Source: Lachnospiraceae bacterium | GTDB lineage: Bacteria; Bacillota; Clostridia; Lachnospirales; Lachnospiraceae | Assembly (NCBI GenBank): GCA_030524705.1 | Contig: JAUNGD010000019.1 | Span: 5,677-56,178 of the forward strand | DNA: 50,502 bases | Direction: 5' to 3' | Made by a program: the position numbers and the translations under genes | Shown here: one piece after another, positions 1-42,696 of the stretch | Position numbering within the stretch: position 1 is the first letter of the stretch | How the letters are laid out: each line of letters starts with the position of its first letter | The notes under the pieces: model-generated | What the model saw: the letters and a program-made list of their open reading frames with translations, nothing else | The model's database searches: none | Told to the model about the DNA's origin: nothing

Positions 1-100
1 CCATGTGCAGCTTTGTACCCTGCGCGTCTTGTACCATATGCGGCTCTGTACTCTGTGCATCTTAGTACCATGTGCGGCTCTGTGTACTCTGCAGAGCATG
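1..100. repeat. Short tandem repeat, about 3 copies of 33-34 bp
   Basis: Three head-to-tail imperfect copies begin at 1, 34 and 68, each opening with CCATGTGC or CCATATGC and continuing with GGCTCTGTACTCTG-like text. The array may continue left of the window. An open frame runs through it into the MATE gene, but the start chosen for that gene lies downstream, so this looks like non-coding leader. Confidence 0.7.
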
Positions 101-135
101 ACGCTGCGATTTCAAAACATACGGTTGGAATAATT

Positions 136-1500
136 ATGAAGAATAGAACAAAAGCGCTGGACCTGACCTCAGGTCCGATTTTTAAAACACTGGCAGGGCT
201 TGCCCTGCCCATCATGGCCTCTTCCTTTTTGGGAACGGCCTACAATATCACAGATATGGCATGGATCGGTATGCTTGGCTCCAAAGCAGTGGCCGGCGTC
301 GGTGTCGGCGGAATGTTTGTCTGGCTCTCCCAGGGCCTCGTCACCCTCGCCCGCATGGGCGGCCAGGTAAATGCGGCACAGGCCTGCGGGCGTAGACAGT
401 TTCAGGAGGCCCGCTGCTACGCTGCGGCCGCTCTGCAGCTTACCGCCCTGTTCGGTATTTTATTCGGGGCGGTCTGTGTTATTTTTATCAGGCCTCTGCT
501 GGGCTTTTTCAATCTGACAGATGTGCAGACTTATGAAGCTGCCCGGGTTTATATGTATATTACCTGCGGATTGATTATTTTTTCCTATCTGAATCTTACT
601 CTGACCGGACTTTACACCGCCCAGGGAGATTCCAGGACTCCCTTTAAAGCTAATCTAATCGGGCTTGTCACCAACATGATCCTCGATCCGCTGCTGATCC
701 TGGGAGTCGGGCCTTTCCCCAGGCTTGCAGCCGCAGGAGCCGCTATTGCAACGGTATCCTCCCAGGTATTAGTATTCGCAGTTCTGCTCATCGAGATTCT
801 ACGGGACAGGACAGAAAATAATATTCTGAAGGGCCTGCGCCTTTTTACTCCTGCTGCCGGGAAATATTATCGCTCCATCAGCAGGATTGGTATTCCTGCG
901 GCGCTGCAGGGAAGTATCTACTGTATGATCTCCATGGTGCTGACCCGGATGGTCTCGGGCTTCGGCCCCGGCGCCATCGCTACGCAGCGGGTGGGCGGCC
1001 AGATCGAATCCCTGTCCTGGAATACGGCAGACGGCTTTTCCTCCGCCCTGAACGCCTTTGTGGCGCAGAATTACGGTGCCGGAAAACCGGACAGGATCCG
1101 CAAAGGATACAACAGCGCTCTGAAGGTCATGATTTGCTGGAGCGCTTTGATCACCGCAGCCTTCGTTCTTTTTCCCCGGCCCATCGCCCGCCTGTTCTTC
1201 TACGAACCGGAGGTTATTGAAATCGCCGTGGGCTATCTGACTATCATCGGTGTCGGCGAGACCTTTATGAGCGTTGAGCTTATGACCGTGGGAGCCCTTT
1301 CCGGTCTCGGGAAAACGACGCTCTGCAGTGTGATCAGCATTACCCTCACCGGTTCCAGGATCCCGCTGGCGTTGCTGCTCACTCGCATGGGTCTGGGACT
1401 GTCCGGTATCTGGTGGGCGCTGACAATTTCTTCTATAATAAAGGGCTTTGTATTTTATTTCACGTTTCAGGCCATGCAGAAAAAAGTATTCCTGAAATAA
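136..1500 (+). CDS. MATE family multidrug/Na+ (or H+) antiporter
   Basis: This is an integral membrane exporter of the MATE family, which expels cationic drugs or metabolites using a sodium or proton gradient. The 454-residue product has the usual length and about twelve hydrophobic segments in two homologous halves. MATE hallmarks include an early LALPIMASSFLGTAYNITD-like stretch and, in the second half, GIPAALQGS. The ATG at 136 is preferred over in-frame starts from position 13, because those would translate the upstream tandem repeat and put about 40 polar residues before the first membrane segment. The ribosome site here is weak (GGTTGGA). The gene converges with the M56 sensor gene and its substrate cannot be told from sequence. 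Confidence 0.9.
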   Translation: MKNRTKALDLTSGPIFKTLAGLALPIMASSFLGTAYNITDMAWIGMLGSKAVAGVGVGGMFVWLSQGLVTLARMGGQVNAAQACGRRQFQEARCYAAAALQLTALFGILFGAVCVIFIRPLLGFFNLTDVQTYEAARVYMYITCGLIIFSYLNLTLTGLYTAQGDSRTPFKANLIGLVTNMILDPLLILGVGPFPRLAAAGAAIATVSSQVLVFAVLLIEILRDRTENNILKGLRLFTPAAGKYYRSISRIGIPAALQGSIYCMISMVLTRMVSGFGPGAIATQRVGGQIESLSWNTADGFSSALNAFVAQNYGAGKPDRIRKGYNSALKVMICWSALITAAFVLFPRPIARLFFYEPEVIEIAVGYLTIIGVGETFMSVELMTVGALSGLGKTTLCSVISITLTGSRIPLALLLTRMGLGLSGIWWALTISSIIKGFVFYFTFQAMQKKVFLK

Positions 1501-1550: not shown

Positions 1551-3455
1551 TCAATTACCGTACCAGATTGTTCCGTCCGGCCCCGTCCAGGTTCCATCTC
1601 CGTTGCTCATGTAAATGCCGCCGGCAATATTCTGCCATGAGCCGTCCGCCTGCTGGTACAGGGTCATCTGATTGTAGCCCTCCGCATCTATGACAGAGCT
1701 CTGACTGATCCCACGATCCGCCGGAGTATCCGGGGTACTGTCCGTCCATGCTGTACCGTTTGTCAGGCAAATCCACTGATCTCCGCCATTCTGCGCGTAC
1801 TGCCTGCCGCTGCCGTCGTACCAATTGCCGTCGGAGGCTTTATTCACATAATTTGCACCTTCTCCTCCTACCGAATACAGGGTAATCTGCTGATCCGTCA
1901 GAGTATATCCCTGCACCGGCGTAGCCGGAGCTCCCTGGGAAGCTGTGTCAGCGGAGGGATTGTCCGCGGACGTATCCCCTGTCAGACTGTTTTCCCGGAA
2001 ATGATCTTCTGCTGTTCCGTCTGCCGCAAGGCTCTCCGGCGCAGAACGGTCTGCTCCGGCAGCATTGGCCCGGTCTCCGTAAAAAGCCTGCGTCCCCTGC
2101 TGATCCGGGCGCTCCCCGGCGACTTCCCCTTCGCCTGCAGGAACAGAGGACTGGCTCTTTGCCCCCGTATATCCCGGAAATCCGGCAACCACACTCTCCA
2201 GGCCCCCGGAAGCCGGGACAATCCCGCCGTCTGATCCGGCGCCGCTTTCGTCCTCACCTGCAAGAATTTTTTCTACAGAACCTGCAGAACATATCCCTCT
2301 CCCAGTCTCTGTCTCATTTATCACACTGCCTACCATGAGCTGTACAGTCAGCATCATGGCGGTAAGCACAACAACCGAACCCACATTCTTTTTCAAATGC
2401 TGCAGATTCCTCATATACAGGATCCGCTCTTTAAAAATAAGCGTGCTGTCATTCAGACTGGCCGCCAGATAAGGCACATGATTCTGAAGCGCAGCCGTTT
2501 TCAACAGCAGGCGGCTGTACTTCATCTGCTCCTCCTTCGTGTAAGCCGCCACCACGCTGCCGTCGCAAAGGTTCTCAATATCCCTCTCCGCCTCGCTCCG
2601 CATCCAGTAAAGCGCCGGATTGAACCAGTATATTGTGTTCACCGCCAGCAGGAGCATTTTGTACCACAGATCACCGCGCCTGTAATGCGTCAGCTCATGG
2701 GAGAGGATGAATTTCAGCTCCTCCATGTCATAGTCCTCTTCCGTGAGATACAGCCCGGTATGACGCAGCCCGGCCAGCACCGGCGTGGATAGCTCTGGAC
2801 TGATCAGCAGCCGGGGCGGACGCCTGATATGCTTTTTCAGACAGATCCAGCGGTACAGCTCCAATACCCTTTTATCCTCCACAGGATAGCTCCACCGCGT
2901 CATCTGGTGCAACGAAAAATAATAGCGGAGCACTTTCGCAATCACAGAAAAGAAAATTCCGGCCGCCCAGACTACTCCGAAAATCTCCAGGACTCCGTAA
3001 ACAGAAACCTTCTCAGAAGGAATCTGGATCGAAATATAGCCCGGATTCTGCGCGGCCGACTCCTCTGCTTCTCTTCTGTCTTCTCCTCTGTTTTCTTCAC
3101 CGGCCTCTTTTTCCGTGGCATTTCCGGCGGCATTTTTCTGTCCCGCACCGCTCTCACTCCCTGTATTCCCTGTCAGGCTGTCGATTTGCAGCACCCCGGA
3201 CTGATCGACTCCCGGCCCGTCAATCTGCTGTACCCCGGACCGATAGACTCCCGGCCTGTTGATCTGCAGCCGGATGGGGCTCCGTGCCGAAAGATTTACC
3301 GGTATCAGCAGGAAAACCGACACCGCCAGCCACATATAGTACTTCCATTTCAGGGAATATTTCTGCTTCGTCATCCGGGCTGAACATACAGCGAGGAGGA
3401 TAATCACGGCAGCAATCAGGTTTATTTTTATTATGTGAAACATGAATGCCGCCAT
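1551..3455 (-). CDS. BlaR1/MecR1-like M56 membrane metalloprotease sensor with a non-penicillin-binding outer domain
   Basis: A 634-residue relative of BlaR1/MecR1. Membrane segments lie near residues 8-25, 38-54, 153-176 and 358-379. The zinc protease motif HELTH is at 253-257, with a third-ligand region EAERDIENLCD near 288-298. In the family, a signal outside activates the protease inside, which inactivates the BlaI partner; that partner gene lies just upstream. The usual C-terminal penicillin-binding domain is absent. Instead a Gly/Ser/Ala-rich linker (about 385-514) leads to a domain at 515-634 that matches the C-terminus of the secreted protein encoded two genes upstream. The loop after the second membrane segment carries 13-residue repeats. 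AGGAGG sits 7 bases before the ATG. The ligand is unknown. Confidence 0.9.
   Translation of the reverse strand: MAAFMFHIIKINLIAAVIILLAVCSARMTKQKYSLKWKYYMWLAVSVFLLIPVNLSARSPIRLQINRPGVYRSGVQQIDGPGVDQSGVLQIDSLTGNTGSESGAGQKNAAGNATEKEAGEENRGEDRREAEESAAQNPGYISIQIPSEKVSVYGVLEIFGVVWAAGIFFSVIAKVLRYYFSLHQMTRWSYPVEDKRVLELYRWICLKKHIRRPPRLLISPELSTPVLAGLRHTGLYLTEEDYDMEELKFILSHELTHYRRGDLWYKMLLLAVNTIYWFNPALYWMRSEAERDIENLCDGSVVAAYTKEEQMKYSRLLLKTAALQNHVPYLAASLNDSTLIFKERILYMRNLQHLKKNVGSVVVLTAMMLTVQLMVGSVINETETGRGICSAGSVEKILAGEDESGAGSDGGIVPASGGLESVVAGFPGYTGAKSQSSVPAGEGEVAGERPDQQGTQAFYGDRANAAGADRSAPESLAADGTAEDHFRENSLTGDTSADNPSADTASQGAPATPVQGYTLTDQQITLYSVGGEGANYVNKASDGNWYDGSGRQYAQNGGDQWICLTNGTAWTDSTPDTPADRGISQSSVIDAEGYNQMTLYQQADGSWQNIAGGIYMSNGDGTWTGPDGTIWYGN
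3177..3263 (-). repeat. Internal 39-bp repeat in the M56 sensor gene
   Basis: Residues about 65-93 of the M56 sensor repeat a 13-residue unit of the form PGV-x-x-SGV-x-QID about twice, plus a partial copy. The stretch is in the loop between the second and third membrane segments and is visible as repeated CAGATTGACGGGCCGGGAG-like DNA on the coding strand. Confidence 0.6.
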
Positions 3456-3515
3456 TGAAAATCCTCCTCATTTCCATTCTTTTTCTTATTTTATCATAAG
3501 ACTACGTTTTTTTAA

Positions 3516-3899
3516 CTATTCCTCCTCCATTTCCTTCAGGAAATCACTCAGCTCCTGGATATTTTTCTGATCCATCTTTTTGCCCTGATACAGGGAGGCT
3601 ACGAACTTTTTCAGAGAATTCCCGTACAGCTTTTCCAGGACATTTTTACTCTCACTCTGCAGATACTCCTCCTGAGATACCAGAGGCGTGTAATAATTTA
3701 CCTTGCCCTCTTTCCTGACCGAAACAAACTGTTTCTTTTCCAGTCTCGACAAAAGCGTAAGAATTGTCGTCGGCGCCAGCGCCTTTTTCTGATTCACTAC
3801 ACGTTCAATTTCCAGCCTGCTCAGCGGCGGTTCATAATTCCAGAGAACCAGCATAATATCCAGCTCTGAATCCGGGAGACGGCTAAACGATTTTTTCAT
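3516..3899 (-). CDS. BlaI/MecI/CopY-family winged-helix repressor
   Basis: A 127-residue member of the BlaI/MecI/CopY family, close to the usual length. The winged helix occupies roughly residues 5-75 (for example LPDSELDIMLVLWNY and PTTILTLLSRLEKK), followed by a helical dimerisation tail. Family members bind TACAnnTGTA-type operators as dimers and are inactivated by the partner M56 protease. Such operators overlap the promoter at 5054-5105 that should drive this operon. The start is the ATG at 3899, with AGGAG about 11 bases upstream; an upstream in-frame TTG would overlap that site. The gene lies between the secreted SH3 protein (40 bases upstream) and the protease (60 bases downstream). 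Confidence 0.92.
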   Translation of the reverse strand: MKKSFSRLPDSELDIMLVLWNYEPPLSRLEIERVVNQKKALAPTTILTLLSRLEKKQFVSVRKEGKVNYYTPLVSQEEYLQSESKNVLEKLYGNSLKKFVASLYQGKKMDQKNIQELSDFLKEMEEE

Positions 3900-3938
3900 T
3901 ACTGTAAAATCTCCTTTCCTACGCAATTTTCTTTGTTT

Positions 3939-5015
3939 TTATTTCTGGCGCCATACCGTTCCGTCCGGGCCGGTCCATGTCCCGTCTCCGTTGTCTGCAA
4001 ATACACCGCCTGCGATGTTCTGCCAGGAGCCATCCTCCTGCTGATACAGGATCACCTGATTGTATCCGTCCTCGTCCGCCAAAGCAACCTGGCTGCCGGA
4101 TGACGCCTCTGTGCTCTCCGTCCATGCGGCGCCGCTGGTCAGGCAAGTCCACTGTCCCGCGCCATTTGTCTGATACTGGCGTCCGCTGCCGTCATACCAG
4201 CTGCCGTTCGTCGCCTTGTATACGTAGGCCGCCGCTGTGCCGTCCGGCGTATACAGCGTAACCTGCTCAGAGGTCAGCGTATATCCGAGGCTTTCTGCGG
4301 TCTCCGGCTCAGTGGAGACATACTCGGACGCGACGTATCCGGCAGAGCCGTTGTAATTGATCTGATACCATCCGGTCTCTGCGCCTCCCGCCTTCTCGAC
4401 GCCTGTCACTTCCACTGCATCCATGTAATAAATGGTAGCCAGTACGGATGCGTCCGTGGAGCTCTCGCTGCGGACATTCAGCTGCTGGCTGATCACCCAT
4501 GCGGTAAACTGAGCCGCTTCTACGGTCTTCTGGGAGCCTGCCTCCTGCTTGTCCCCCGCCCCGTTCGTACCGGTTACCGAGGCTATCCCTGCCGTTCCTG
4601 CTGCCGGCTTCACTGCCTTTTTCGTGTCATATTTCTCAATCTCTGCAGACTGTACGGCTTCCTGAATTTCTTCAAAATCCTTCTTGTCAACGACGGAGCC
4701 CGTGATGATAAATACTTCATTCTCCGTGGAAATAATGTTCTGGCAAACCTGCGCATAGCCGTTTCCTGCCACCGTTATCTCTGGTAGCTTCTCTCCGTTG
4801 CTGTAATGCAGAAGTGTGATTCTGTCGTTCCCATCCGTCAGCGTCGCCCAGGTCTCACTGTCATCCACCTGCTTCCAGTCATCTCCCGGAGTCTGCAGCG
4901 TCAGAACCGCATCCGGGGTCGTAAATTCAGCTCCCAGAACCGGCGCTCCTGTCATAAAAGCCGCCGCCGCTGCAAAGAAAACAGCCAGCTTTACATTTCT
5001 AAAATTCAATTTCAT
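3939..5015 (-). CDS. Secreted SH3-domain protein sharing its C-terminal domain with the M56 sensor
   Basis: A 358-residue exported protein. It begins with a signal peptide (about 1-29, ending VLGA), then an unrecognised domain (about 30-130) and a low-complexity linker. A bacterial SH3 domain follows (about 170-235, with LNVRSESSTDASVL and GYVASEYVS). SH3 domains of this type usually bind peptidoglycan or wall peptides. Residues 244-358 match residues 515-634 of the M56 sensor in order: YTLT, WYDGSGRQY, a CLT-x-G-x-AW block, EGYNQ or DGYNQ, GSWQNIAGG and NGDGTWTGPDGT. It is the first gene of the operon, directly behind the BlaI-like operators, so it is probably the main induced product. No lipobox or sortase signal is visible. 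Function unknown; a wall-binding or envelope-stress role is inferred. Confidence 0.85.
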   Translation of the reverse strand: MKLNFRNVKLAVFFAAAAAFMTGAPVLGAEFTTPDAVLTLQTPGDDWKQVDDSETWATLTDGNDRITLLHYSNGEKLPEITVAGNGYAQVCQNIISTENEVFIITGSVVDKKDFEEIQEAVQSAEIEKYDTKKAVKPAAGTAGIASVTGTNGAGDKQEAGSQKTVEAAQFTAWVISQQLNVRSESSTDASVLATIYYMDAVEVTGVEKAGGAETGWYQINYNGSAGYVASEYVSTEPETAESLGYTLTSEQVTLYTPDGTAAAYVYKATNGSWYDGSGRQYQTNGAGQWTCLTSGAAWTESTEASSGSQVALADEDGYNQVILYQQEDGSWQNIAGGVFADNGDGTWTGPDGTVWRQK

Positions 5016-5053
5016 AATATCGTTTTCCTTTCTGAACTATCTGTTTTTATCTT

Positions 5054-5105
5054 CTACAGATGTAGTTGTTATGGTCATTCTACATCTATAGAAGATGTTT
5101 GTCAA
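5054..5105 (-). promoter_or_regulatory. Sigma-A promoter with two BlaI/CopY-type operators
   Basis: On the minus strand, TTGACA (5105-5100), a 17-base spacer and TAGAAT (5082-5077) form a near-consensus promoter for the SH3-blaI-M56 operon. Two dyads of the TACAnnTGTA type overlap it: CTACAGATGTAG at 5054-5065, and CTACATCTATAG at 5080-5091, which is the reverse complement of the first apart from one base. One sits across the -10 box and spacer, the other just after the start site, which is ideal for repression. Confidence 0.85.
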
Positions 5106-5279: not shown

Positions 5280-6137
5280 ATGGAATGGATAAACGCCATC
5301 GGAGAGGCAGTCGACTTTATTGAAGCTCACCTTACGGAGGATATTACCATAAATGATGTCGCGGATCACGTTTATATCTCTCCGTTTTATTTTCACAAGG
5401 GATTCAGTATGCTGTGCGGGTACTCCCTGGGAGAATACATCCGGAACCGCAGACTGTCTCTGGCAGGCGCCGAGCTGCTTACCAGCGATATCTCAATTCT
5501 TGAGCTTGCAATGAAATACAGATATGACTCCCCCGACAGCTTCTCCAGAGCTTTCTCCCGCTTTCACGGGCTTTCCCCCGCGGCAGCACGAAAAGAGAAG
5601 GCCATGCTCAAGACCTTTGCTCCGCTGAAATTAACAATCTCTTTGAAAGGTGGTTATGTGATGGATTACAGAATTACAAAAAAAGAAAGCTTTACGGTCC
5701 TGGCAGCATCCAGGGAATTTCGCTATGACAATGCACAGCAGGAAATTCCCGCATACTGGAAGGAACATTACGCGTCAGGAAACGGAGCATACGTCTGCGG
5801 AATGTTCGGCATCAACATTGACCCGCAGATGGGAAATGAGACCTTCGAATATTTAATTGCAGACGTTTATCATCCCGCAGCAGATATCCCGAAGGGCTTT
5901 AGCGTAAGAACGATTCCGGCCTTTACCTGGGCAGTCTTTCCCTGCAAGGGCGCAATGCCCCAGGCCCTGCAGGACGTCAATACCAAGCTGTTCTCCGAAT
6001 GGCTTCCGTCGTTAAAGGAATATGAATTTGCCGCCGGATACTGCGTGGAAATGTACGATGCGGCAGACAAATACCCCAAGGGAATCCAGGATGAAAACTA
6101 CTATACAGAAATCTGGATTCCTGTAAAAAAGAAGTAA
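5280..6137 (+). CDS. AraC-family regulator with GyrI-like effector-binding domain
   Basis: 285 residues with the two-part layout of Rob-like regulators. An AraC double helix-turn-helix lies at about 5-105 (FIEAHLTEDITINDVADHVY and SPDSFSRAFSRFHGLSP). A GyrI-like small-molecule-binding domain spans about 125-285 and ends in YYTEIWIPVKKK, as is typical. Relatives sense drugs or other hydrophobic compounds and activate efflux or detoxification genes. AGGAGG sits 8 bases before the ATG. The gene stands alone on the plus strand, converging with the glyoxalase-family gene, so its target is unclear. Confidence 0.88.
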   Translation: MEWINAIGEAVDFIEAHLTEDITINDVADHVYISPFYFHKGFSMLCGYSLGEYIRNRRLSLAGAELLTSDISILELAMKYRYDSPDSFSRAFSRFHGLSPAAARKEKAMLKTFAPLKLTISLKGGYVMDYRITKKESFTVLAASREFRYDNAQQEIPAYWKEHYASGNGAYVCGMFGINIDPQMGNETFEYLIADVYHPAADIPKGFSVRTIPAFTWAVFPCKGAMPQALQDVNTKLFSEWLPSLKEYEFAAGYCVEMYDAADKYPKGIQDENYYTEIWIPVKKK

Positions 6138-15297: not shown

Positions 15298-17688
15298 TCA
15301 CCCCATAATTACCTCTACCTCGTGTTCCGTACCGGACGGGAACTGCAAAATCCTATCCACAGCCCTTCCGTCCACAAATATCTGTTTTACCCCCTTCATC
15401 ACTCCCGCCGGATTTTTTACGCTGATCCGGTAGGAAGCTCCGCGCCATTTTCTCGTTACCTCAAACTCCGTCCATTCCTTCGGAATGCAGGGATCCACCA
15501 GCAAATAATCGAGCTGCGGCCGGATTCCCAGCATGTAACGGGTAGCAGAGAAGTACGCCCAGCCGCCGCTTCCTGTCATGAAGGGATGGCGGGCTCTTCC
15601 GAAGGCCGTGTGATCCTTTCCCATGATAAACTGGCAGTAGGAGTACGGCTCAGCCTCTCTTATTTCTATCATATCATTTTGACGGCTCGGGCACAATGCC
15701 TGATAATATTTCATTGCCTTATCGCCCCGTCCAAGACGGCATTCTGCCGCCCATACCCAGGGATTCGGATGGCTGAAAATAGCTCCGTTTTCTTTGACTC
15801 CCGGATATACCCGGGTCACAAATCCCACTTCCTCATCCGGCACGGTATAGGAAGGAGCGTTCAGCATAATGCCGTAGGGCGTATATAAGTACTCTTCAAT
15901 GCTGTCCATGGCCTGGATTCCCTGCTCATACGTAGCCGCCCCGGACAGTACCGCCCAGGCATTGGACTCCAGATGGATCTTACCCTCCGCATCCTCCATG
16001 GTGCCGATCTTTCTTCCGCTCTTTGTGATCCCCCGGATGAACCATTTTTCATCCCAAAGCTGCGTCTCACAGGTCTTCTTCACGGTGCGGTACATCGTCT
16101 CGTACTTATCAATGTCCTCCTGCACGCCCTTTCTCCTGGCCAGCTCCAGAAAATGCTCCAGCGCCCACACATGGAGGAAGGATACCAGAGCGCTCTCGCC
16201 GCCGCCCAGATTCAAACAGTCGTTCCAGTCCGCCCGAAGTCCAAGGCAGACACCGTGGGCTCCCACCTGCTCGAAGGAGAAATCCAGGATTTTTTTCATA
16301 TGCTCGTAAACAGTGCCTTCTCCTGCATCCGCATATCCGATCACCTGATCCAGGAACTCCTCCTCCCCGGTTTCCCGGATATACTCTGCGATAGACGGAA
16401 TCAGCCAAAGCGCATCGTCAGAGCACGTATCCTTCAGCCCGTGAATGCGGTCCTTCACATCCGGCACCGGGATCACCGTGGGAGAAGAAAACGGTCTCGC
16501 CTCCTCCTGGGGCTCAAACCACGCCGGATCAAACAGATGCAGGCCGTATCCCTTGGATACCAGGCCATGCAGAAGCTGCTCGATCCTCTGCCGGCACCGT
16601 TCCGGGTTTGAGTGCGGTATCGTCATGGCATCCTGGGACGTATCCCGGAATCCCAGTCCCGTTCTGCCGCCCACCTCGATGAAGGATGCAAACCTTGAAA
16701 ACATAATATTTACTTCCGCCTGGTACAGATTCCAGGTGTTCAGCATCGTGTTCATATCCTCATCCGGCGTATGTACCTGAAGTCTGGAAAACTTATCTTC
16801 CCAGTAAGCTGCCAGCTCCCGGGCCGCCCGATCCACATTTGCCGGGTCGCTGTATTTTTCCCGGATCGGGTATGCCGCCTCTCTTCTTCCCTCACCCAGC
16901 ATAAAGATCACCCGGATCTCTTCCCCGGGAGCCAGCAGCAGCTTCTTCTGAAGAGCGCCGCAGTGGTTTCCGCCCTTTTCCGCTGAAGAGCTGCAGACGC
17001 CGCTTTCCACCGCCGCCGGGTTCGACTCTGTACGGTATGCGCCTAAAAACTTGTCTCTGACACAATCATAACCGTCCGGCTCAAAGCTTGCGGTAAAATA
17101 CTGGTACCCGAATTCTTCGTAGAACAGGTCATGCTCGATTACACCGTTTTCATAGGAAGAGCCTGCGGCATAGAGGCTCATCTGGAAATTCTGATTGTCC
17201 ATATCAATATGATGGAAAGAAAACTCACAGTACGAGAAAACGCTCAGCCTCCGCTCCGTGTCACTGTTATTTTTGATTCGGACGTCCCAAAGCTCCACCG
17301 TATCTCCCAGAGGGATCATCAGCTTCTGGGACGCCTGTATCCCCTTATAATCGCATTCATAAACGGAGTAGGACATCCCGTGGCGGCACCGATAGGACGC
17401 TTCCGTCAGCGGCTTGCCCACCGGCTGCCAGGAAATACTCCAGTAGTCTCCGTCCGCTTCATCCCGCAAATACACGTAATGCCCCGGCCTGTCCATCGGC
17501 ACACCGTTGGGCCGGAATCTCGTAATCCTATGGTACTGCGGCGTCTTGTAAAAAAGATACCCGCCCGCCGTGTGATTCACCACAGCGCACATCTCCTCAA
17601 CTCCAATATAATTTGTCCAGGATACCGGAACATCCACACGGTCAATACAGTACTCCCTGCGTTCATTGTCAAAATATCCGTATTTCAT
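15298..17688 (-). CDS. GH94 disaccharide phosphorylase, chitobiose-phosphorylase-like
   Basis: 796 residues, the usual size for GH94. These enzymes split a beta-linked disaccharide with phosphate, giving a sugar 1-phosphate. The catalytic acid lies in RADWNDCLNLGGGES (about residue 487-490 from this start). The segments FASFIEVGGRTGLGFRD, GKPLTEASYRCRHGMSYS, NHCGAL and SPTVIPVPDVKDRIHGLKD read like Vibrio N,N'-diacetylchitobiose phosphorylase as I recall it, not like cellobiose phosphorylases. Cellobionic acid phosphorylases belong to the same branch and remain possible. No signal peptide, so it acts on imported sugar. The ATG at 17688 has GGGAGG 5 bases upstream; longer frames would run into the 131-bp array. 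Confidence 0.88.
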   Translation of the reverse strand: MKYGYFDNERREYCIDRVDVPVSWTNYIGVEEMCAVVNHTAGGYLFYKTPQYHRITRFRPNGVPMDRPGHYVYLRDEADGDYWSISWQPVGKPLTEASYRCRHGMSYSVYECDYKGIQASQKLMIPLGDTVELWDVRIKNNSDTERRLSVFSYCEFSFHHIDMDNQNFQMSLYAAGSSYENGVIEHDLFYEEFGYQYFTASFEPDGYDCVRDKFLGAYRTESNPAAVESGVCSSSAEKGGNHCGALQKKLLLAPGEEIRVIFMLGEGRREAAYPIREKYSDPANVDRAARELAAYWEDKFSRLQVHTPDEDMNTMLNTWNLYQAEVNIMFSRFASFIEVGGRTGLGFRDTSQDAMTIPHSNPERCRQRIEQLLHGLVSKGYGLHLFDPAWFEPQEEARPFSSPTVIPVPDVKDRIHGLKDTCSDDALWLIPSIAEYIRETGEEEFLDQVIGYADAGEGTVYEHMKKILDFSFEQVGAHGVCLGLRADWNDCLNLGGGESALVSFLHVWALEHFLELARRKGVQEDIDKYETMYRTVKKTCETQLWDEKWFIRGITKSGRKIGTMEDAEGKIHLESNAWAVLSGAATYEQGIQAMDSIEEYLYTPYGIMLNAPSYTVPDEEVGFVTRVYPGVKENGAIFSHPNPWVWAAECRLGRGDKAMKYYQALCPSRQNDMIEIREAEPYSYCQFIMGKDHTAFGRARHPFMTGSGGWAYFSATRYMLGIRPQLDYLLVDPCIPKEWTEFEVTRKWRGASYRISVKNPAGVMKGVKQIFVDGRAVDRILQFPSGTEHEVEVIMG

Positions 17689-17738
17689 ACCAACCTCCCA
17701 AAGTCTGTCCTGTTCGGACTGAATGATCATTTGCTTTT

Positions 17739-18391
17739 TATCTCCTGCTCTGCATAGACTCGTGAAAATGCTTAGCATTTTCTCTCGTTAAGCTATAAAC
17801 TGCTTCGCAGTTGCGCCGTTCACTGCGTTCACGGCTTGAAGACGCTTCGCGTCTTCTCATGCCTTACTTTATCTCCTGCTCTGCATAGACTCGTGAAAAT
17901 GCTTAGCATTTTCTCGCGTTAAGCTATGAACTGCTTCGCAGTTGCGCCGTTCACTGCGTTCACGGCTGGAAGACGCTTCGCGTCTTCTCATGCCTTACTT
18001 TATCTCCTGCTCTGCATAGACTCGTGAAAATGCTTAGCATTTTCTCTCGTTAAGCTATGAACTGCTTCGCAGTTACGCTGTTCACTGCGTTCACAGCTGG
18101 AAGACGCTTCGCGTCTTCTCATGCCTTACTTTATCTCCTGCTCTGCACAGACTCGTGAAAATGCTCAGCATTTTCTCTCGTTAAGCTATGAACTGCTTCG
18201 CAGTTACGCCGCTCACTACGTTCACGGCTGGAAGACGCTTTGCGTCTTCTCATGCCTTACTTTATCTCCTGCTCTGCATAGACTCGTGAAAATGCATAGC
18301 ATTTTCCCTCGTTAAGCTATGAACTGCTTCGCAGTTGCGCCGTTCACTGCGTTCACGGCTGGAAGACGCTTTGCGTCTTCTCATAGCTTAC
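17739..18391. repeat. Tandem array: five 131-bp units rich in hairpins
   Basis: Units begin at 17739, 17870, 18001, 18132 and 18263, an exact 131-bp period with only a few differences per unit. Each unit has at least four small dyads: GAAAATGC/GCATTTTC, AACTGC/GCAGTT, GCCGT/ACGGC and GAAGACGC/GCGTCTTC, three of them around 3-base loops. Changes fall largely in loops, or in pairs that keep a stem (unit 3). On the minus strand each unit also holds a 40-codon open frame (ATGs at 17860, 17991, 18122, 18253 and 18384). The array fills the gap between metY and the GH94 operon; the rest of this 770-base gap holds the metY terminator and a 50-base GH94 leader with no clear promoter. Confidence 0.93.
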
Positions 18392-31058: not shown

Positions 31059-34000
31059 TTACAGATCAAAATTCTCCCGCATATCCTTTTCTCTGTTAAA
31101 GATATCGTAAATGCAGGGCACTACAAACAGCGTCAGAAGTGTTCCGTAAACGAGACCGCCCACCGTAACGATCGCCATAGGCTGTATCATATCGGCGCCC
31201 ATTCCCATGCCGGCGGCCAGCGGCAGAAGGCCCAGGATGGTCGTGAGGGCCGTCATCAGAATCGGCCGGAGCCTCGTCTTGCCTGCCTCTACGATGGCTG
31301 ATTTTTTATCCATACCCTCCCGGCGGAGCTGGTTGATATAATCTACCAGAACGATACCATTGTTGACAATAATACCAGACAGCATAACGAAGCCGATCAT
31401 CGCAATGACGCTGACAGGATTGTCAGTCAGATACAGGCCGAACAGGCCTCCCGTAAATGCCAGCGGAATCGTAAACATGATGATAAACGGCGACAGCAGG
31501 GACTGGAACTGAATAACCATGATCAGATACATGAAAACGACTGCCAGTGCAAGCATTTTCAATACCTCGCCCATGGCTTCATTGATCGTCTCATCCTCTC
31601 CGGCCATTTTGATGCTGTAGCCCTCCGGCACATCATAGTCCTCCAGCGCTTTTTGTACATCCGCCGATACAAGGCCGATGTTGTGGTCATCGTCGATCTG
31701 AGCCGTCACCGTGACATACCGGTTCTGAGACTGACGCTGGATAGAGGAAAATCCTTCTGTATCCTGGAACTCCACTAGCTTGCTTAAGGGAACGTCCACA
31801 TCCTGGTTTTCTTCATCCTTACCGGTGATGGTAAGCTTTTTGATCTTATCCCTGGTCAGTGTCTCATCCGCATCGCTGACCACGATAACAGAATAATCCT
31901 TAGACATCGTGGAAAGCGTAGTCGCGCTGGAGGCCTCCGCAAGCTTCGCCTGCAGCATCTGGAATACCTGGGCCGTCGTCAGCTGGTAGCTCATGGCCGC
32001 ATTTTTGTCAACCACCAGCCGCAGCTCCAGCGTCTTCTCGTCAATTCCGTCGGATACCTCTGCCGTACCCTCCACGGTCTTTACGATGTCCGCCACCTCG
32101 CCGGCCATACGCTTCAGCTCATCCAGGTCACGTCCCTGAATCTGAACAGAAATGCCGCTGCCGCCCAGAGCCGACATATCCATGGTGGAGGTCTCTACAT
32201 TCACTTCACAGTCCAGATCCTCCGTCCGGTCCAGGATCTCCTTTTCCAGCTCCTTATTGCTGATCGTCTTATTCTCATCCAGCAGCACGTACATGGATAC
32301 CTGCTCTGTATCGCTGCTGCCGCCTCCTCCCATGAGGCTCATGCCGCCAGAGCCGTTCATCGCTCCGACGTCCGTCACATCCTGAATGGAAAGGATCCGC
32401 TCTATTACTTCATCTGAAAGCGCCGCCGTCTCCTGCAGCGTGCTTCCCTCCTTCGTCTGAACCGTCACACTTACCTGCGTGCTGTCCATTTCCGGCATAA
32501 AAGCAGTACCCTTTGAAAGCGCCAGATAGCCGGAATAGCCCAAAAGTCCCAGGGCCAGCAGCAGTACAAGGAATTTCAACTTCAGAGAGCCCCTCAGCAA
32601 AACCCCGTATCCGCTCTGGATCAGATTCATGACCCGGGATTTCTTTTCCGTTGTCTTTCTCAAAAGTCCCGCGCCCATCATGGGAACCACCGTCAGCGCC
32701 ACCGCCAGACTGGCCAACAAAGAAAAGGCGATCGTCAGGCCCATGTCCACGAAAAGCTGTCTCGTGATACCCTCCGTAAATACGATCGGAAGGAAAACGC
32801 AGATCGTAGTCATCGTAGAAGCCGCGATGGAGCCGGCTACCTGGTTCGCACCCTCCACGGCCGCCTTTTTAGCCGGAACGCCGAGACTTCGCAGCCGGTA
32901 TATATTTTCAATTACAACGATGGAGTTATCCACCAGCATACCGACTCCCAGCGCCAGACCGGAAAGGGAAATAATGTTCAGGCTGATGTTGCTGAAATAC
33001 ATCAGTACCAGCGCCGTTACAATACTGATCGGGATCGAGCAGGCAATCACCAGCGTAGGCCGGAAGCTCTTCATAAAGATCAGCAGAATCACAATAGCCA
33101 GCACCGCACCGGAAAGAATATTGTCCAATACGGAATCTACCACAAGATCAATGTAAATGCCCTGATCCATCAGCTTCACGATATGGACGTTCTCGTTGGA
33201 TTCCTCAAGCTTTGCGAACCGGCTCTTGATGCGGTCGGAGACGTCGCCTGTGGAGTAGCCGGACTGCTTCTGCATCGTAAACACAACTCCCGGATGGCCG
33301 TTCACACTGGCGTAGATCGTATCGCTGTCGTCTATGACCGTCACGTCCGCCACATCCGAAAGACAGATCGGGTCCACGTCATCCATGTGAAGGTTCAAAA
33401 GCATCAGATCCTCCAGCCCCTCCGTATCCGTCAGCTTATTGCCGATACGCACCAGGAAGTCAACGCCGTCCTCCGTCACATAGCCCGCGGGCATACTGAA
33501 GTTCTGCGCCGCCAGAATTCCCTTTATCATATCCTTTGTAATAATCTGTGTCACGTCGGCCTGCTTGTAAGCGCTCTCCTTCTGATCCTTGATCTGCTCC
33601 AGCGCCGCATCAAGCTGCTTCTGCCCGGCGCTCAGCTCGGCCTTGCCCGCCGCCATCTCAATGGTAGCCGAAATCTTTGCCGCATTCAGCTGGGCCGTCG
33701 CCTCCGATACCGTACTCTGCCCGGAAGCGATCTTGGCCTTCGCATCCTCAAGCTGCTTTTTCGCCGCCTGCAGCTGCGTCCGCCCGGAGCTTATCTGCAC
33801 CTTGCCCTCTGCAATGGCCGTTTTGCCCTGCTCCAGCGCCACCATCTGCTCCGGCATTGCATCTATATTCTTCTGGAGCTCGGCAATACCGTCATCTACC
33901 TGAGCCTTTCTTGTGATCAGCTCCGACTTGACGCTGTCCATGCTGGACACCATGGCATAATAATCCCCGGAGGTATTTACCCCGATGGCTGCCAGAGCCG

Positions 34001-35534
34001 CCAAAGCATCTGCCTTTGTCTTTTCATAGGCGGCCTTCTCCGCCTGCTTTGCCTGCAGCTGGCTCTGAAGAGAGACAAGATCCGAGGACTGGACCAGCTG
34101 CTCCAGCTCATCCTTCGACAATCCCCCGGCATCCTGAATGATCTCATCAATATTAAGAACAAAATCGTCCTGACCGACCACCGGGGCAGAAGTACCCTGT
34201 CCTGGCTCTGACGCCGGAATATTCTCATCCAGTATCTCGTCCTGCTGATCCGATACATCCGCCGCCATGATTTCATCCTCTGACGACTGCGTTTTCACCG
34301 TACCGTTTTCCTGCAGGCTTGCGCCGAAAGCTCCGGCATCCTCTGACTGCAGGCCGGACTCCGCACTGCGTCCCGAAACGCTGCCGCCTGTTCCTGTCTG
34401 ACTATTATCCGGCGCCCCGGTCTGATTGTTCCCCGGTGCCTCCGTCTGACTATTGCCCGGCGCCTCGGTCTCCACAGTCCCGCCCAAAGCGGCGATCTGG
34501 CCCTCCAATATTTTGATTTCCTGATCCAGGCGGACAATCTGGGCCTCCAGAAGTGCGATCTGGCCCGGCGCTGCCTCCAGCTGCTGAATCCCTGTCTCAA
34601 TCTGTGTCTTCTGGGCCGCCAGAGCCTCCTTCTGCACCGGAAGCTGCTTCAGCGCGGCCTCTCCCGCCAGAAGCTCCTTCTCCTTTTCCAGCAGCTCGCT
34701 CTCAGAGGTATCCAGGGCCTGCAGGCCGGACTCCACCTCTGCCAGCTTCTGGTCAATCTGCACCTGTCCGGTGATCATCTGGGAGGTGCCGGAGCTGAGC
34801 TGGCTCTCCGCCTGGGAGGTCTGATCCACCAGCTGGCCCTGGCCGCTCTCCAGCTTATCCTTGCCCTCATCCAGCTCCGCCTGGGCATCCTGGATCTCCT
34901 GCTCGGCCTCTTCAAACTTCTTGTCCAGGGCAGCGATGACCTTTTCATTTACTGCGTCCAGCTTATCCTGCCGCAGCATCACCTGCACCTGCTCCTCTAT
35001 CGTACCATTGGCGCTGACGGAAGCCACGCCCTCGATACCCTCCAGCTCCGGGAGGATTTCATTATTTACCAGCGTGGTCAGCTCGCTCTGGGTCATATCC
35101 CCGGCTTCCATGGCCGCTACCATGACCGGCAGCATATCCGGATTCAGCTTCATAATAATAGGGCTGCCCACCGAGTCATCCCAATATCCTTCTATCTGAT
35201 CCAGGCTCTCCCGCATCTCTATCGTCACAGCATCCATGTTGGCATTCTGGGAAAACTGCAGAATAACGGTGGAAATATTTTCACTGGAAATTGAATTGAT
35301 CTCCTCGATATTGCTGATCGTCGCCATGGACTGCTCCACCGGCTTGGTAACGATCGTCTCCACCTCCTCCGGGCTGGCTCCCGGATAAACCGTATACACG
35401 ACTGCATAGGGCAGAGTCATATCCGGCAGCAGATCCGTCTGCATGCTGGTAAAAGATACATAGCCCAGAATAATCACTAAAACCACCCCGACGATGACGG
35501 TATAGGGGCGCTTGACGCTGTAACGTGATAACAT
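31059..35534 (-). CDS. RND efflux permease with a very large coiled-coil insertion
   Basis: 1491 residues against about 1030-1070 for usual HAE-type RND pumps. The ends are normal: TM1 near 10-28, PDMTLPYAVVYTVYPGASPEEVE, a second 12-TM core with GVGMLVDNSIVVIENIYRL (TM4 relay, Asp-Asn rather than Asp-Asp) and a closing VTVGGLVYGTLLTLFVVPCIYD. Residues about 202-660 are extra: heptad-rich coiled coil (202-350), a low-complexity EAPGNxQT linker (355-382), an acidic stretch, then a second coiled coil (475-655). The insert sits in the porter domain between KLDAVNEKV and AAQNFSMPAGYV, which normally adjoin. No adaptor or outer-membrane partner is encoded nearby. Substrate unknown. Confidence 0.92.
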   Translation of the reverse strand: MLSRYSVKRPYTVIVGVVLVIILGYVSFTSMQTDLLPDMTLPYAVVYTVYPGASPEEVETIVTKPVEQSMATISNIEEINSISSENISTVILQFSQNANMDAVTIEMRESLDQIEGYWDDSVGSPIIMKLNPDMLPVMVAAMEAGDMTQSELTTLVNNEILPELEGIEGVASVSANGTIEEQVQVMLRQDKLDAVNEKVIAALDKKFEEAEQEIQDAQAELDEGKDKLESGQGQLVDQTSQAESQLSSGTSQMITGQVQIDQKLAEVESGLQALDTSESELLEKEKELLAGEAALKQLPVQKEALAAQKTQIETGIQQLEAAPGQIALLEAQIVRLDQEIKILEGQIAALGGTVETEAPGNSQTEAPGNNQTGAPDNSQTGTGGSVSGRSAESGLQSEDAGAFGASLQENGTVKTQSSEDEIMAADVSDQQDEILDENIPASEPGQGTSAPVVGQDDFVLNIDEIIQDAGGLSKDELEQLVQSSDLVSLQSQLQAKQAEKAAYEKTKADALAALAAIGVNTSGDYYAMVSSMDSVKSELITRKAQVDDGIAELQKNIDAMPEQMVALEQGKTAIAEGKVQISSGRTQLQAAKKQLEDAKAKIASGQSTVSEATAQLNAAKISATIEMAAGKAELSAGQKQLDAALEQIKDQKESAYKQADVTQIITKDMIKGILAAQNFSMPAGYVTEDGVDFLVRIGNKLTDTEGLEDLMLLNLHMDDVDPICLSDVADVTVIDDSDTIYASVNGHPGVVFTMQKQSGYSTGDVSDRIKSRFAKLEESNENVHIVKLMDQGIYIDLVVDSVLDNILSGAVLAIVILLIFMKSFRPTLVIACSIPISIVTALVLMYFSNISLNIISLSGLALGVGMLVDNSIVVIENIYRLRSLGVPAKKAAVEGANQVAGSIAASTMTTICVFLPIVFTEGITRQLFVDMGLTIAFSLLASLAVALTVVPMMGAGLLRKTTEKKSRVMNLIQSGYGVLLRGSLKLKFLVLLLALGLLGYSGYLALSKGTAFMPEMDSTQVSVTVQTKEGSTLQETAALSDEVIERILSIQDVTDVGAMNGSGGMSLMGGGGSSDTEQVSMYVLLDENKTISNKELEKEILDRTEDLDCEVNVETSTMDMSALGGSGISVQIQGRDLDELKRMAGEVADIVKTVEGTAEVSDGIDEKTLELRLVVDKNAAMSYQLTTAQVFQMLQAKLAEASSATTLSTMSKDYSVIVVSDADETLTRDKIKKLTITGKDEENQDVDVPLSKLVEFQDTEGFSSIQRQSQNRYVTVTAQIDDDHNIGLVSADVQKALEDYDVPEGYSIKMAGEDETINEAMGEVLKMLALAVVFMYLIMVIQFQSLLSPFIIMFTIPLAFTGGLFGLYLTDNPVSVIAMIGFVMLSGIIVNNGIVLVDYINQLRREGMDKKSAIVEAGKTRLRPILMTALTTILGLLPLAAGMGMGADMIQPMAIVTVGGLVYGTLLTLFVVPCIYDIFNREKDMRENFDL

Positions 35535-41220: not shown

Positions 41221-41242
41221 TCCTTTCTTTCCCGGCCGGATG

Positions 41243-42580
41243 TTACCTTCCCTCCGGCAAGGCCGCCCTGCGGTAGATAAACCAGGATATGACCGCCGCC
41301 AGCAGTTCCGTCACCCAAAACGCGTGCCATACGCCCCGGGCGCCCAGAAAACGGCTCAAAAGGAAGGCCGCCGGAATAATCACCACCGTATAACGGAGCA
41401 GCGAAATCACCAGGGACGGACCGCCCTTTCCCAGCCCCTCCAGCGCTCCAGAGGAGATGACGGAAACCGAGGACACAATAAAACCGAGGCTGATGATCCG
41501 CAGGGCCTCTGCTCCGATGCGGATAGTCTCGCTGTTCACCGTAAACAGGCCGATCAGCCGGTTTGGATCAAGCCAGCACAGCACCGTTCCCACGGCCATA
41601 ATCGCCGCCGTCAGAAACAGCGCCGTCATGTAAAGCCCCTTCACCCGCCTGTGCTCCTTTGCTCCATAATTGTATCCGATCAGCGGCCGCAGCCCCTGAA
41701 CGATTCCGTTTGCCGTCAGATAAATAAAGGTCTGAAGCTTGTAATAGACACCCAGGACAACAACGTAGGCCTGGGAATAAGAAGCCAGTATCGCATTCAG
41801 CGACGATACCAGCAGCGACGGCAGCGCCAGATTCAAGGTCGCCGGAATCCCCACCGAGTACAGCCTGAGCACCGTATTTTTTTCAAAGGCTGCGTATTTT
41901 TTCCCGATCCTTACATGGATCGGTCTCACAAAATAGATGACGACATAGATAGCCAGGCTGATCGTCTGCCCGATACCGGTAGCCAGCGCCGCCCCTTCAA
42001 TTCCCATTTCCGGGAAAATGCCGATCCCAAAGATCAAAAGCGGATCCAAAATGATATTGGAGATACAGCCGCACAGCATACTCAGCATGGTCATCGTCAT
42101 TTTTCCCACCGATTGAAAGACCTTTTCTGCGGTCATACCCATCGCAATGATCACCGCAAAGCTGAAGGCAATGCGGGAATACCGGATCCCCAAATCAACG
42201 ACCTGCAAATCGTCCGTAAACATCCGCAAAAAGGCCGGCATGATCCCAATGCCTCCGACGGACAAAAGAATCCCGTGCAGAATGCTGAGCAGCAGCCCCT
42301 GTGTGGCCGCCGCATTTGCCTTCTTATTTTCCCCCGCTCCCAAAAAGAAAGAAATCACAGCGTTGATTCCGATGGAAAAGCCGATCGTAACCGCATTGAT
42401 AAAGTTCTGGACCGGATAAACAAGGGAAAGCGCCGTCATGGCATCCTCGCTGATCTTCGCCACAAAAAAGCTGTCAACAATATTGTACAGCGAATTGACC
42501 ATCATGGACAATACCATCGGCAGCGACATGGACAAAAGCAATGGCAGGACTGGTTTTTCTTTCATAAATGTCTGGTTCAT
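41243..42580 (-). CDS. MATE family efflux transporter
   Basis: 445 residues with twelve membrane segments. Hallmarks are VLPLLLSMSLPMVLSMMVNSLYNIVDSFFVA at the start and VGIPATLNLALPSLL at the second half. GAGGAG lies 9 bases before the ATG. This is the third MATE gene in the window, and it differs clearly from the other two, so it is not a recent duplicate. The substrate is unknown. Confidence 0.92.
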   Translation of the reverse strand: MNQTFMKEKPVLPLLLSMSLPMVLSMMVNSLYNIVDSFFVAKISEDAMTALSLVYPVQNFINAVTIGFSIGINAVISFFLGAGENKKANAAATQGLLLSILHGILLSVGGIGIMPAFLRMFTDDLQVVDLGIRYSRIAFSFAVIIAMGMTAEKVFQSVGKMTMTMLSMLCGCISNIILDPLLIFGIGIFPEMGIEGAALATGIGQTISLAIYVVIYFVRPIHVRIGKKYAAFEKNTVLRLYSVGIPATLNLALPSLLVSSLNAILASYSQAYVVVLGVYYKLQTFIYLTANGIVQGLRPLIGYNYGAKEHRRVKGLYMTALFLTAAIMAVGTVLCWLDPNRLIGLFTVNSETIRIGAEALRIISLGFIVSSVSVISSGALEGLGKGGPSLVISLLRYTVVIIPAAFLLSRFLGARGVWHAFWVTELLAAVISWFIYRRAALPEGR

Positions 42581-42696
42581 ATTTCATTACTCCTCTTCTG
42601 TTCTGGTTCCTCACAGATCTGCCATAAAGCGCATTTTTCTGTGATATAACAAAAAGTGTGCTTCAGCGTGACAAGGTCTTTCCTGCTACGTAAAAA

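Follow-up and report, generated by a model that had tools for sequence, protein, structure and literature searches.

Which signal is read by a BlaR1-type receptor that lacks a penicillin-binding domain? It is chiefly through antibiotic resistance that BlaR1-type systems have become familiar. We addressed this question for an operon in a 50,502-nucleotide stretch of a Lachnospiraceae genome (hereafter the window); its host is a gut-type bacterium that carries in this operon a small, self-controlled switch. Three minus-strand genes, defined by open reading frames and Pfam matches, make up the operon: one for a secreted SH3 protein (here A), one for a BlaI repressor and one for a membrane protease of the M56 (BlaR1) type.

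The receptor gene (1551..3455, minus strand) encodes 634 residues with a Peptidase_M56 domain (E 8.4e-41). Its PF05569 score of 140.5 bits against a cut-off of 31, together with an HExxH motif (HELTH, residues 253-257), places it in peptidase family M56. H253, E254 and H257, D262, E294 and D298 (ExxxD) and Y313 are kept at identical spacings in all five aligned receptors; the roles of these residues in the BlaR1 protease are named in the excerpt of PMC9834060. Pfam detected no transpeptidase or penicillin-binding domain in the protein at E up to 1, and the NCBIfam BlaR1 model scored 103.3 of 400 bits, far under its cut-off. The adjoining BlaI-family gene (3516..3899, minus strand; 127 residues; Penicillinase_R E 1.3e-27) scores 96.8 bits with PF03965 against a cut-off of 22.6, as expected of a BlaI/MecI repressor, and a CopY/TcrY assignment falls short at 66.3 of 121.95 bits (NCBIfam TIGR02698). 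The listed frame (3516-3926) begins at a TTG; the ATG at 3899-3897, preceded by a good Shine-Dalgarno sequence, is the likelier start. The operon contains A, BlaI and M56 and no beta-lactamase or PBP gene.

Gene A (3939..5015, minus strand) encodes 358 residues arranged, from open reading frame, Pfam and AF2 data, as a signal-peptide-like start, an unnamed N-terminal domain, an SH3_3 domain and a two-repeat C-terminal domain. AF2 gave no resolved fold for residues 1-160 (pLDDT <50). The SH3_3 domain (residues 179-234; 4314..4481, minus strand; Pfam E 1.7e-12) qualifies as a bacterial SH3 domain, with 47.8 bits against the PF08239 cut-off of 27, and Foldseek matched A to bacterial SH3 chains (9ovi, E 2.0e-3; lysostaphin 5nmy, E 0.034; ALE-1 1r77, E 1.2). 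The only Foldseek matches of A below 0.001, 9a4o (TagH) and 9a7d, are integrative models with long, poor superpositions and were not taken as evidence. Pfam recognised no enzyme domain in A; its PHROGs match is an amidase family and covers the SH3 part (E 5e-8).

The C-terminal domain of A (residues 244-358; 3942..4286, minus strand) recurs as the ectodomain of the receptor (residues 515-634; 1554..1913, minus strand). The original prediction had claimed one outer domain for sensor and secreted protein in a BlaI/M56 module without a penicillin sensor, and both parts of this claim held. M56 residues 516-631 and A residues 244-355 are identical at 72 of 116 positions (62%), and with an E value of 1e-46 we reject a chance likeness. 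A structural comparison of the copies, set beforehand as a test, agreed: AF2 predicts eleven strands in identical order in both (pLDDT 59-90 over the block in A; mean 81.1 in M56). The domain is built of two like halves (repeats r1 and r2), and we found no Pfam name for it. Searched with A's copy, the bacterium's own genome gave A (249 bits) and M56 (150.7 bits) as the sole strong matches; the next places, in an electron-transport-type membrane protein (18.1 bits) and an FtsH-like protein (12.6 bits), both named from their translations, look like chance.

A second test, whether the domain is a generic repeat, came out divided. Strong copies (at least 78 bits) were seen only in the A/M56 pair, but relatives of at most 33 bits occur in A-like proteins with no BlaI gene behind them (L040, L041 and L043) as well as in a number of other proteins, some of them unrelated (L042, L044, L045 and L049 are examples), so the domain is not always found in such pairs. 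L048 is probably another A-like gene without BlaI, its contig ending 380 bp behind the gene. No relative of the domain was found among 38 pattern matches in viral contigs, and whole A matched nothing in plasmids. A PDB sequence search with the domain returned chance-like matches only; with the M56 copy, the best PHROGs match had an E value of 0.047 and Foldseek gave nothing at E up to 0.001.

Upstream of A, a sigma-70-type promoter can be recognised by eye (5077..5105, minus strand), with TTGACA at 5105-5100, a 17-bp spacer and TAGAAT at 5082-5077. The classical BlaI/MecI operator box is TACAnnTGTA. Two sites of this type, one exact and one near, lie at 5054-5091 and are predicted BlaI operators at the module's own promoter: operator 1, CTATAGATGTAG (5080..5091, minus strand), overlaps the -10 box, and operator 2, CTACATCTGTAG, occupies 5054..5065 (minus strand). 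The pattern CTAYANNTGTAGAA has two sites in the 3.87-Mb assembly (88% complete), both at this promoter, against one for the reversed control. Since it is found nowhere else in the assembly, A is probably the sole output of the module besides its regulators. A looser search for a wider BlaI regulon, with CTACANNTGTAG and up to one mismatch, gave 46 sites on each strand, fewer than the 127 of the reversed control, and two such sites less than 100 bp apart occur at the operon only. Self-induction, also part of the original prediction, gains support from this double predicted operator.

Relatives of the operon show the same pairing. In the closest set (the window, L005, L037, L038 and L039), every one of the five loci has at least the first repeat in A as well as in M56, and none of the five receptors lacks either repeat. 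Repeat makeup across A proteins includes r1+r2, r1+r1+r2, r1+r1 and r1; L005's A has lost the second repeat, and in L039's A the first repeat is doubled and the second missing; A can therefore do without the full domain. The receptors have long low-complexity linkers before the domain. Domain copies within the genus group mostly by protein, which argues against homogenisation at this depth. In another genus, L046 has an A/M56 pair with a diverged domain. The copies in its A and M56 show 48% identity to one another (42% when low-complexity sequence is masked). Single BLASTP hits to the window's copies show 27-29% identity across 85-120 residues, except that only 17 residues align between its M56 and the window's. 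Since a second genus and all five close loci have the pair, we reject the idea that it arose by recent duplication in a single strain.

The shared unit is larger than first described in two relatives: the receptors of L005 and L037 also carry A's SH3 domain, so that SH3 plus the C-terminal domain occurs in both proteins, and the SH3 copies of A and receptor are each other's closest (81% and 77% identity, respectively). The window's receptor lacks the SH3 domain found in A.

Predicted operators accompany these operons. Of 11 loci scanned, 8 have paired sites 25-26 bp apart before the operon: all six members of the A/BlaI/M56 family, and L053 and L056, which are related to it. Paired sites 23-24 bp apart precede both NAGPA operons. 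The scan gave no site before the independent mirrored operons L078, L104 and L166, and none before the A-like genes of L040 and L048; the sequences of L041 and L043 are cut off at the gene start.

Such mirroring of receptor and product is not confined to this family. Among 146 M56 loci, 12 of 145 ectodomains matched a gene of their own locus (BLASTP E up to 1e-5) and 133 were not mirrored at this level; permuted loci, in a permutation that ignores kinship, gave a mean of 0.33 matches and a maximum of 4 in 10,000. Six of the 12 belong to the A/BlaI/M56 family, L005 having entered through its likeness to A, and the other six, of which L154 and L159 come from one genus, use five other domains: a solute-binding protein, PepSY, a phosphodiester glycosidase, the N-terminal domain of an amidase-like protein and an unnamed one. 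In the solute-binding case (L078), the receptor ectodomain is a whole solute-binding protein, and the same solute-binding protein is encoded next to it. The partner in L166 is a secreted amidase-like gene (51% over 162 aa; amidase read from sequence); a 99% match there, to a duplicated piece of the receptor, was left out of the count. Every one of the 12 partners is encoded on the same strand as its receptor, no more than 581 bp away, and 11 pass the threshold for a hydrophobic N-terminus (the twelfth at 1.69 against 1.7), compared with 413 of 1261 other ORFs. For the survey, 60 matches were taken from one set of 73, leaving out the window's own and 12 others (mostly short), and the three weakest were left out of another. 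Five of 150 M56 ORFs, with ectodomains under 40 aa, were excluded, and the two M56 ORFs of L054 belong to a single disrupted gene. Genes were called by a greedy longest-ORF rule and the last membrane helix by a crude hydropathy rule.

By analogy with BlaR1, BlaI at rest would sit on the double operator and keep the operon shut; an outside ligand meeting the M56 ectodomain would activate the inner metalloprotease, which would inactivate BlaI and induce the operon. The product besides the regulators would be A, exported and ending in the receptor's own domain. We infer that a single ligand, probably a cell-wall component, is recognised by receptor and A alike. Made in excess, A would occupy this ligand and damp its own induction, and would at the same time coat or protect the wall component. 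We favour this reading with confidence just above even. The independent mirrored pairs, above all the solute-binding receptor and protein, lend indirect support to a single ligand.

We consider it unlikely that the domain is instead an attachment module moved between neighbouring genes by recombination, with signalling through loops or the linker and a likeness without regulatory meaning. Repeat number does vary among A proteins, as it does in arrays of wall-binding repeats, the domain in the receptors follows long low-complexity linkers, and weak relatives occur in A-like orphans and other proteins. Yet neither half has been lost from the receptor in any of the five close loci, mirrored pairs far outnumber the most seen in permuted loci (12 against 4), and the ectodomain of the solute-binding case is a domain for binding rather than anchoring. 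Quite unlikely, too, is auto-sensing, in which the domain would bind its own kind and the receptor would sense free or wall-bound A, and with it A's uptake by the wall. A common ligand or substrate accounts better for the solute-binding, PepSY and glycosidase mirrors, even if A as the only product besides the regulators, the domain's presence in both proteins of relatives, its two like halves, and L046's copies being more alike than either is to that of the window's A would all suit such a scheme. RsiV senses lysozyme, and by a similar logic the domain might be a lysozyme-inhibitor-like (MliC/PliC) barrel, A inhibiting a muramidase that the receptor senses; this is very improbable, as the MliC/PliC profile gave an hhalign probability of about 0.1% and no Pfam hit, and we rejected it on this sequence evidence. 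An ordinary BlaR1/BlaI beta-lactam resistance switch is scarcely credible and was also rejected, for despite the M56, BlaI and TACAnnTGTA-type operators there is neither a penicillin-binding sensor nor a beta-lactamase or PBP gene in the operon, and just 3 of 144 M56 ectodomains have a transpeptidase-family match (Pfam, 25 of 28 families listed; L117, with a doubtful ectodomain, left out of the 145).

In SigI/RsgI systems, sensing modules also occur on the enzymes that they control. These membrane regulators of cellulosome bacteria resemble the window's receptor in having an outer binding element, CBMs and GHs that sense polysaccharides (excerpt of PMC3413522), but RsgI is an anti-sigma factor, not an M56/BlaI pair, and the ligand is a plant polysaccharide. 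BlaR1/MecR1-BlaI of Staphylococcus and Bacillus licheniformis share with the module an M56 protease with BlaI, an outer C-terminal sensor and inverted-repeat operators. Unlike them, the window's receptor has an unnamed two-repeat beta domain in place of a penicillin-binding one (with SH3 added in two relatives), and the operon's output, a secreted protein, has no recognised enzyme domain. A likeness between sensor and effector has precedent, since the BlaR1 sensor is described as structurally homologous to class D beta-lactamases (excerpt of PMC5957439). The cyanobacterial PetRP pair (BlaI-like/BlaR1-like) likewise serves a non-antibiotic purpose, with a regulon of four proteins; its signal is copper, and the excerpt of PMC7896320 describes no mirrored secreted partner. 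Clostridium thermocellum BlaI_1845 and BlaI_0696 also have small regulons that consist of their own operon, in which blaR1 genes and genes for hypothetical proteins are found, and the excerpt of PMC8457756 describes no domain shared by receptor and product. We found no earlier description of the present arrangement in the open literature searched.

Because mirrored pairs with other domains are found elsewhere, sensors of this kind may monitor whatever their own product binds. In general form, and only tentatively, at somewhat less than even confidence, we propose that the outer domain of M56 receptors has repeatedly been borrowed from the protein that their operon exports, so that receptor and product would compete for the ligand and the sensor, self-calibrating, would report what is left free; BlaR1, whose sensor resembles a beta-lactamase, would be one case. 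Where an outer domain copies a product's domain, the product would reveal the receptor's signal, offering a route to the signals of orphan receptors. The solute-binding and glycosidase mirrors have ligands or substrates open to screening, and the window's operon, small and closed with one promoter and one output, is easy to test. One further exact CTACANNTGTAG site in the assembly lies within a ROK-like gene, a name read from its sequence.

The operon occupies the minus strand, with gene A first (5015-3939), the BlaI gene in the middle (3899-3516) and the M56 gene last (3455-1551). A MatE transporter gene (1-1500, plus strand) is convergent with it, and an AraC/GyrI-like regulator gene (5280-6137) is directed away from it. 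Protein A has a signal-peptide-like start followed by an N-domain with no assigned name; SH3_3 spans residues 179-234, and the C-terminal domain recurs in M56, where the peptidase (Pfam, residues 142-347) and a low-complexity linker precede it. The two copies are identical at 72 of 116 positions (BLASTP, E 1e-46). At E up to 1, no Pfam family was found in the M56 copy and none above threshold in A, whose copy gave a weak, sub-threshold Inh row (E 0.053). The domain is an internal repeat with two halves of about 50 residues each. AlphaFold2 predicts eleven strands in identical order in both copies, with block pLDDT of 59-90 in the A copy, and a mean pLDDT of 81.1 and one additional short helix in the M56 copy; these models are moderate because each alignment held only four sequences.

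A profile of both copies matched 6 of 47 genomes of the genus, and four of these (the window genome, G004, G026 and G028) encode A, BlaI and M56 in one operon whose two outer genes both contain the domain. A fifth operon lies in a Lachnospiraceae MAG (locus L005, JAUNON010000083.1). There, gene A (2231-3205) retains just the first half of the domain before it ends, and further downstream, in a different frame and with stops present, the beginning of the second half is seemingly readable. The receptors of L005 and L037 have an SH3 domain adjoining the shared domain, nearest to the SH3 of the same genome's A (81% and 77%, respectively). The same operon occurs in another genus (L046, genome G308), where the two copies share 48% identity. 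Single BLASTP hits align the L046 and window copies at 27-29% identity over 85-120 residues, except for the alignment of the two M56 copies, which spans just 17 residues.

In an unrooted FastTree (support 0.38-0.92), copies within the genus cluster mostly by protein, suggesting that the duplication probably predates most of the species compared; both L038 copies and the L005 receptor copy group together, outside the protein groups. Across 397 family genomes, all relatives of the domain outside the window genome were weak. One search matched 10 genomes, including the window genome and G308, and a second matched seven, including the window genome and without G308. The weak relatives are either A-like proteins without BlaI behind them (L043 and L048 in the family, L040 and L041 in the genus) or other proteins (L044, L045, L047, L049 and L052).

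To place this arrangement among M56 receptors, we collected 146 M56 loci (window, L005, L037-L039, L046, L053-L132 and L141-L200), of which 86 came from the genus and family (the window, L005, L037-L039, L046 and 80 others); a PF05569-based sample across the phylum supplied the other 60. L005 had entered through its likeness to A. BLASTP comparison of 145 ectodomains (at least 40 aa) with the non-M56 ORFs of their own loci found 12 mirrored at E up to 1e-5, against a mean of 0.33 and a maximum of 4 in 10,000 permutations of loci, a comparison that ignores relatedness. Mirrored receptors are thus a minority of those surveyed (12/145), and half of them (6/12) belong to the A-BlaI-M56 operon family. 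Each of the 12 partners is encoded on the same strand as its receptor, at a distance of up to 581 bp, and 11 passed the threshold for a hydrophobic N-terminus, versus 413 of 1261 other ORFs.

The six remaining pairs involve different domains. At L078 (4743-7295, genome G053; order SBP-M56-BlaI), the ectodomain is an extracellular solute-binding protein (Pfam SBP_bac_1) adjoining an SBP lipoprotein (61% over 471 aa). A paralogous solute-binding protein elsewhere in G053 adjoins a gene read as an ABC permease, so the L078 ectodomain is of a ligand-binding kind. L154 (6006-8829; 62%) and L159 (3833-6670; 56%), from one genus, have phosphodiester glycosidase ectodomains (NAGPA by Pfam in L154, by likeness to it in L159), and the next gene encodes NAGPA with a hydrophobic N-terminus. 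At L166 (3379-6708), the ectodomain resembles the N-terminal domain of the next gene's secreted protein, amidase-like by our sequence reading (51% over 162 aa); an ectodomain fragment, 99% identical, lies 3.6 kb away. The other two matches are PepSY (Pfam) at L104 (40% over 68 aa) and a domain without a Pfam name at L183 (65% over 168 aa).

Only 3 of 144 ectodomains scanned matched the transpeptidase family, as in BlaR1. Others matched DUF4825 (6), LytR_cpsA_psr (3), Peptidase_M23 (3), NAGPA (2), SH3_3 (2), SBP_bac_1 (1) and PepSY (1). M56 receptors therefore bear many kinds of exported domain, of which the window's is one case. Exported domains matched by M56 ectodomains also include LRR and BNR, among others. 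Related receptors of the same genus at L056-L058 have no mirror; BlaI is preceded by an SH3 lipoprotein at L057 and, by eye, L058, and a different secreted protein is encoded between BlaI and M56 at L056.

The operon promoter reads TTGACA - 17 bp - TAGAAT, with a putative BlaI-type site overlapping the -10 box and a second putative site 26 bp downstream. In the 3,873,584-base assembly (88% complete), CTAYANNTGTAGAA occurs twice, both times at the operon (reversed control, 1), and the shorter CTACANNTGTAG, with one mismatch allowed, occurs at 46 places per strand versus 127 for its reversed control. Closely spaced pairs of CTACANNTGTAG-type sites (one mismatch) were found at the operon only. 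This pairing and the absence of CTAYANNTGTAGAA elsewhere in the assembly suggest that the clear target of BlaI is its own operon, with A as the sole non-regulatory product. Among 11 upstream regions scanned, 8 contain paired sites 25-26 bp apart. Six of these regions belong to the operon family (window, L005, L037-L039 and L046), and the other two are those of the related loci L053 and L056; the scan gave a single site at L057. TACAnnTGTA pairs precede the NAGPA operons, 24 bp apart in L154 and 23 bp in L159. The operator scan gave no sites upstream of L078, L104, L166 or the A-like genes L040 and L048; L183 starts at a contig end.

In BlaR1, as PMC9834060 describes, an outside ligand shifts the sensor, so that BlaI is cut by the inner metalloprotease and the operon opens; the protease residues named there are kept in M56. 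By analogy, a ligand would move the M56 sensor, causing the metalloprotease to cleave BlaI and open the operon. A conserved FVxSLY-like stretch of BlaI resembles YLxASLND of M56. These stretches, FV(A/T/V)(S/A)LY and Y(L/V)(A/S/T)ASLND, occur in the window, L005, L037-L039, L046, L053, L056 and L057, the last with H in place of Y in the M56 stretch. We would guess that the former may be the substrate and the latter an autocleavage stretch. We would assign the putative ligand to the cell wall because SH3 domains occur in A (5/5 close operons), in lipoproteins encoded ahead of BlaI at the related loci L057 and, by eye, L058, and in two receptors. The response of Bacillus licheniformis BlaI to an intracellular peptidoglycan dipeptide as well, reported in PMC3305447, would fit this theme. 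Protein A may compete with the receptor and damp the signal, the sign of feedback that we prefer. We found no paper in open-access PMC describing an M56 receptor whose ectodomain recurs in its operon-mate; the closest ideas were the class D-like sensor of BlaR1 (PMC5957439) and the binding modules that RsgI proteins carry on the outside (PMC3413522).

Elsewhere in the window, a plus-strand 469-aa ORF without a Pfam hit (41240-42649) faces a 445-aa ORF, and a GH94 phosphorylase-type gene (15298-17778) lies close to sugar-transport-like genes. A 1491-aa AcrB-type protein is encoded at 31059-35534 in what is likely a Gram-positive host.
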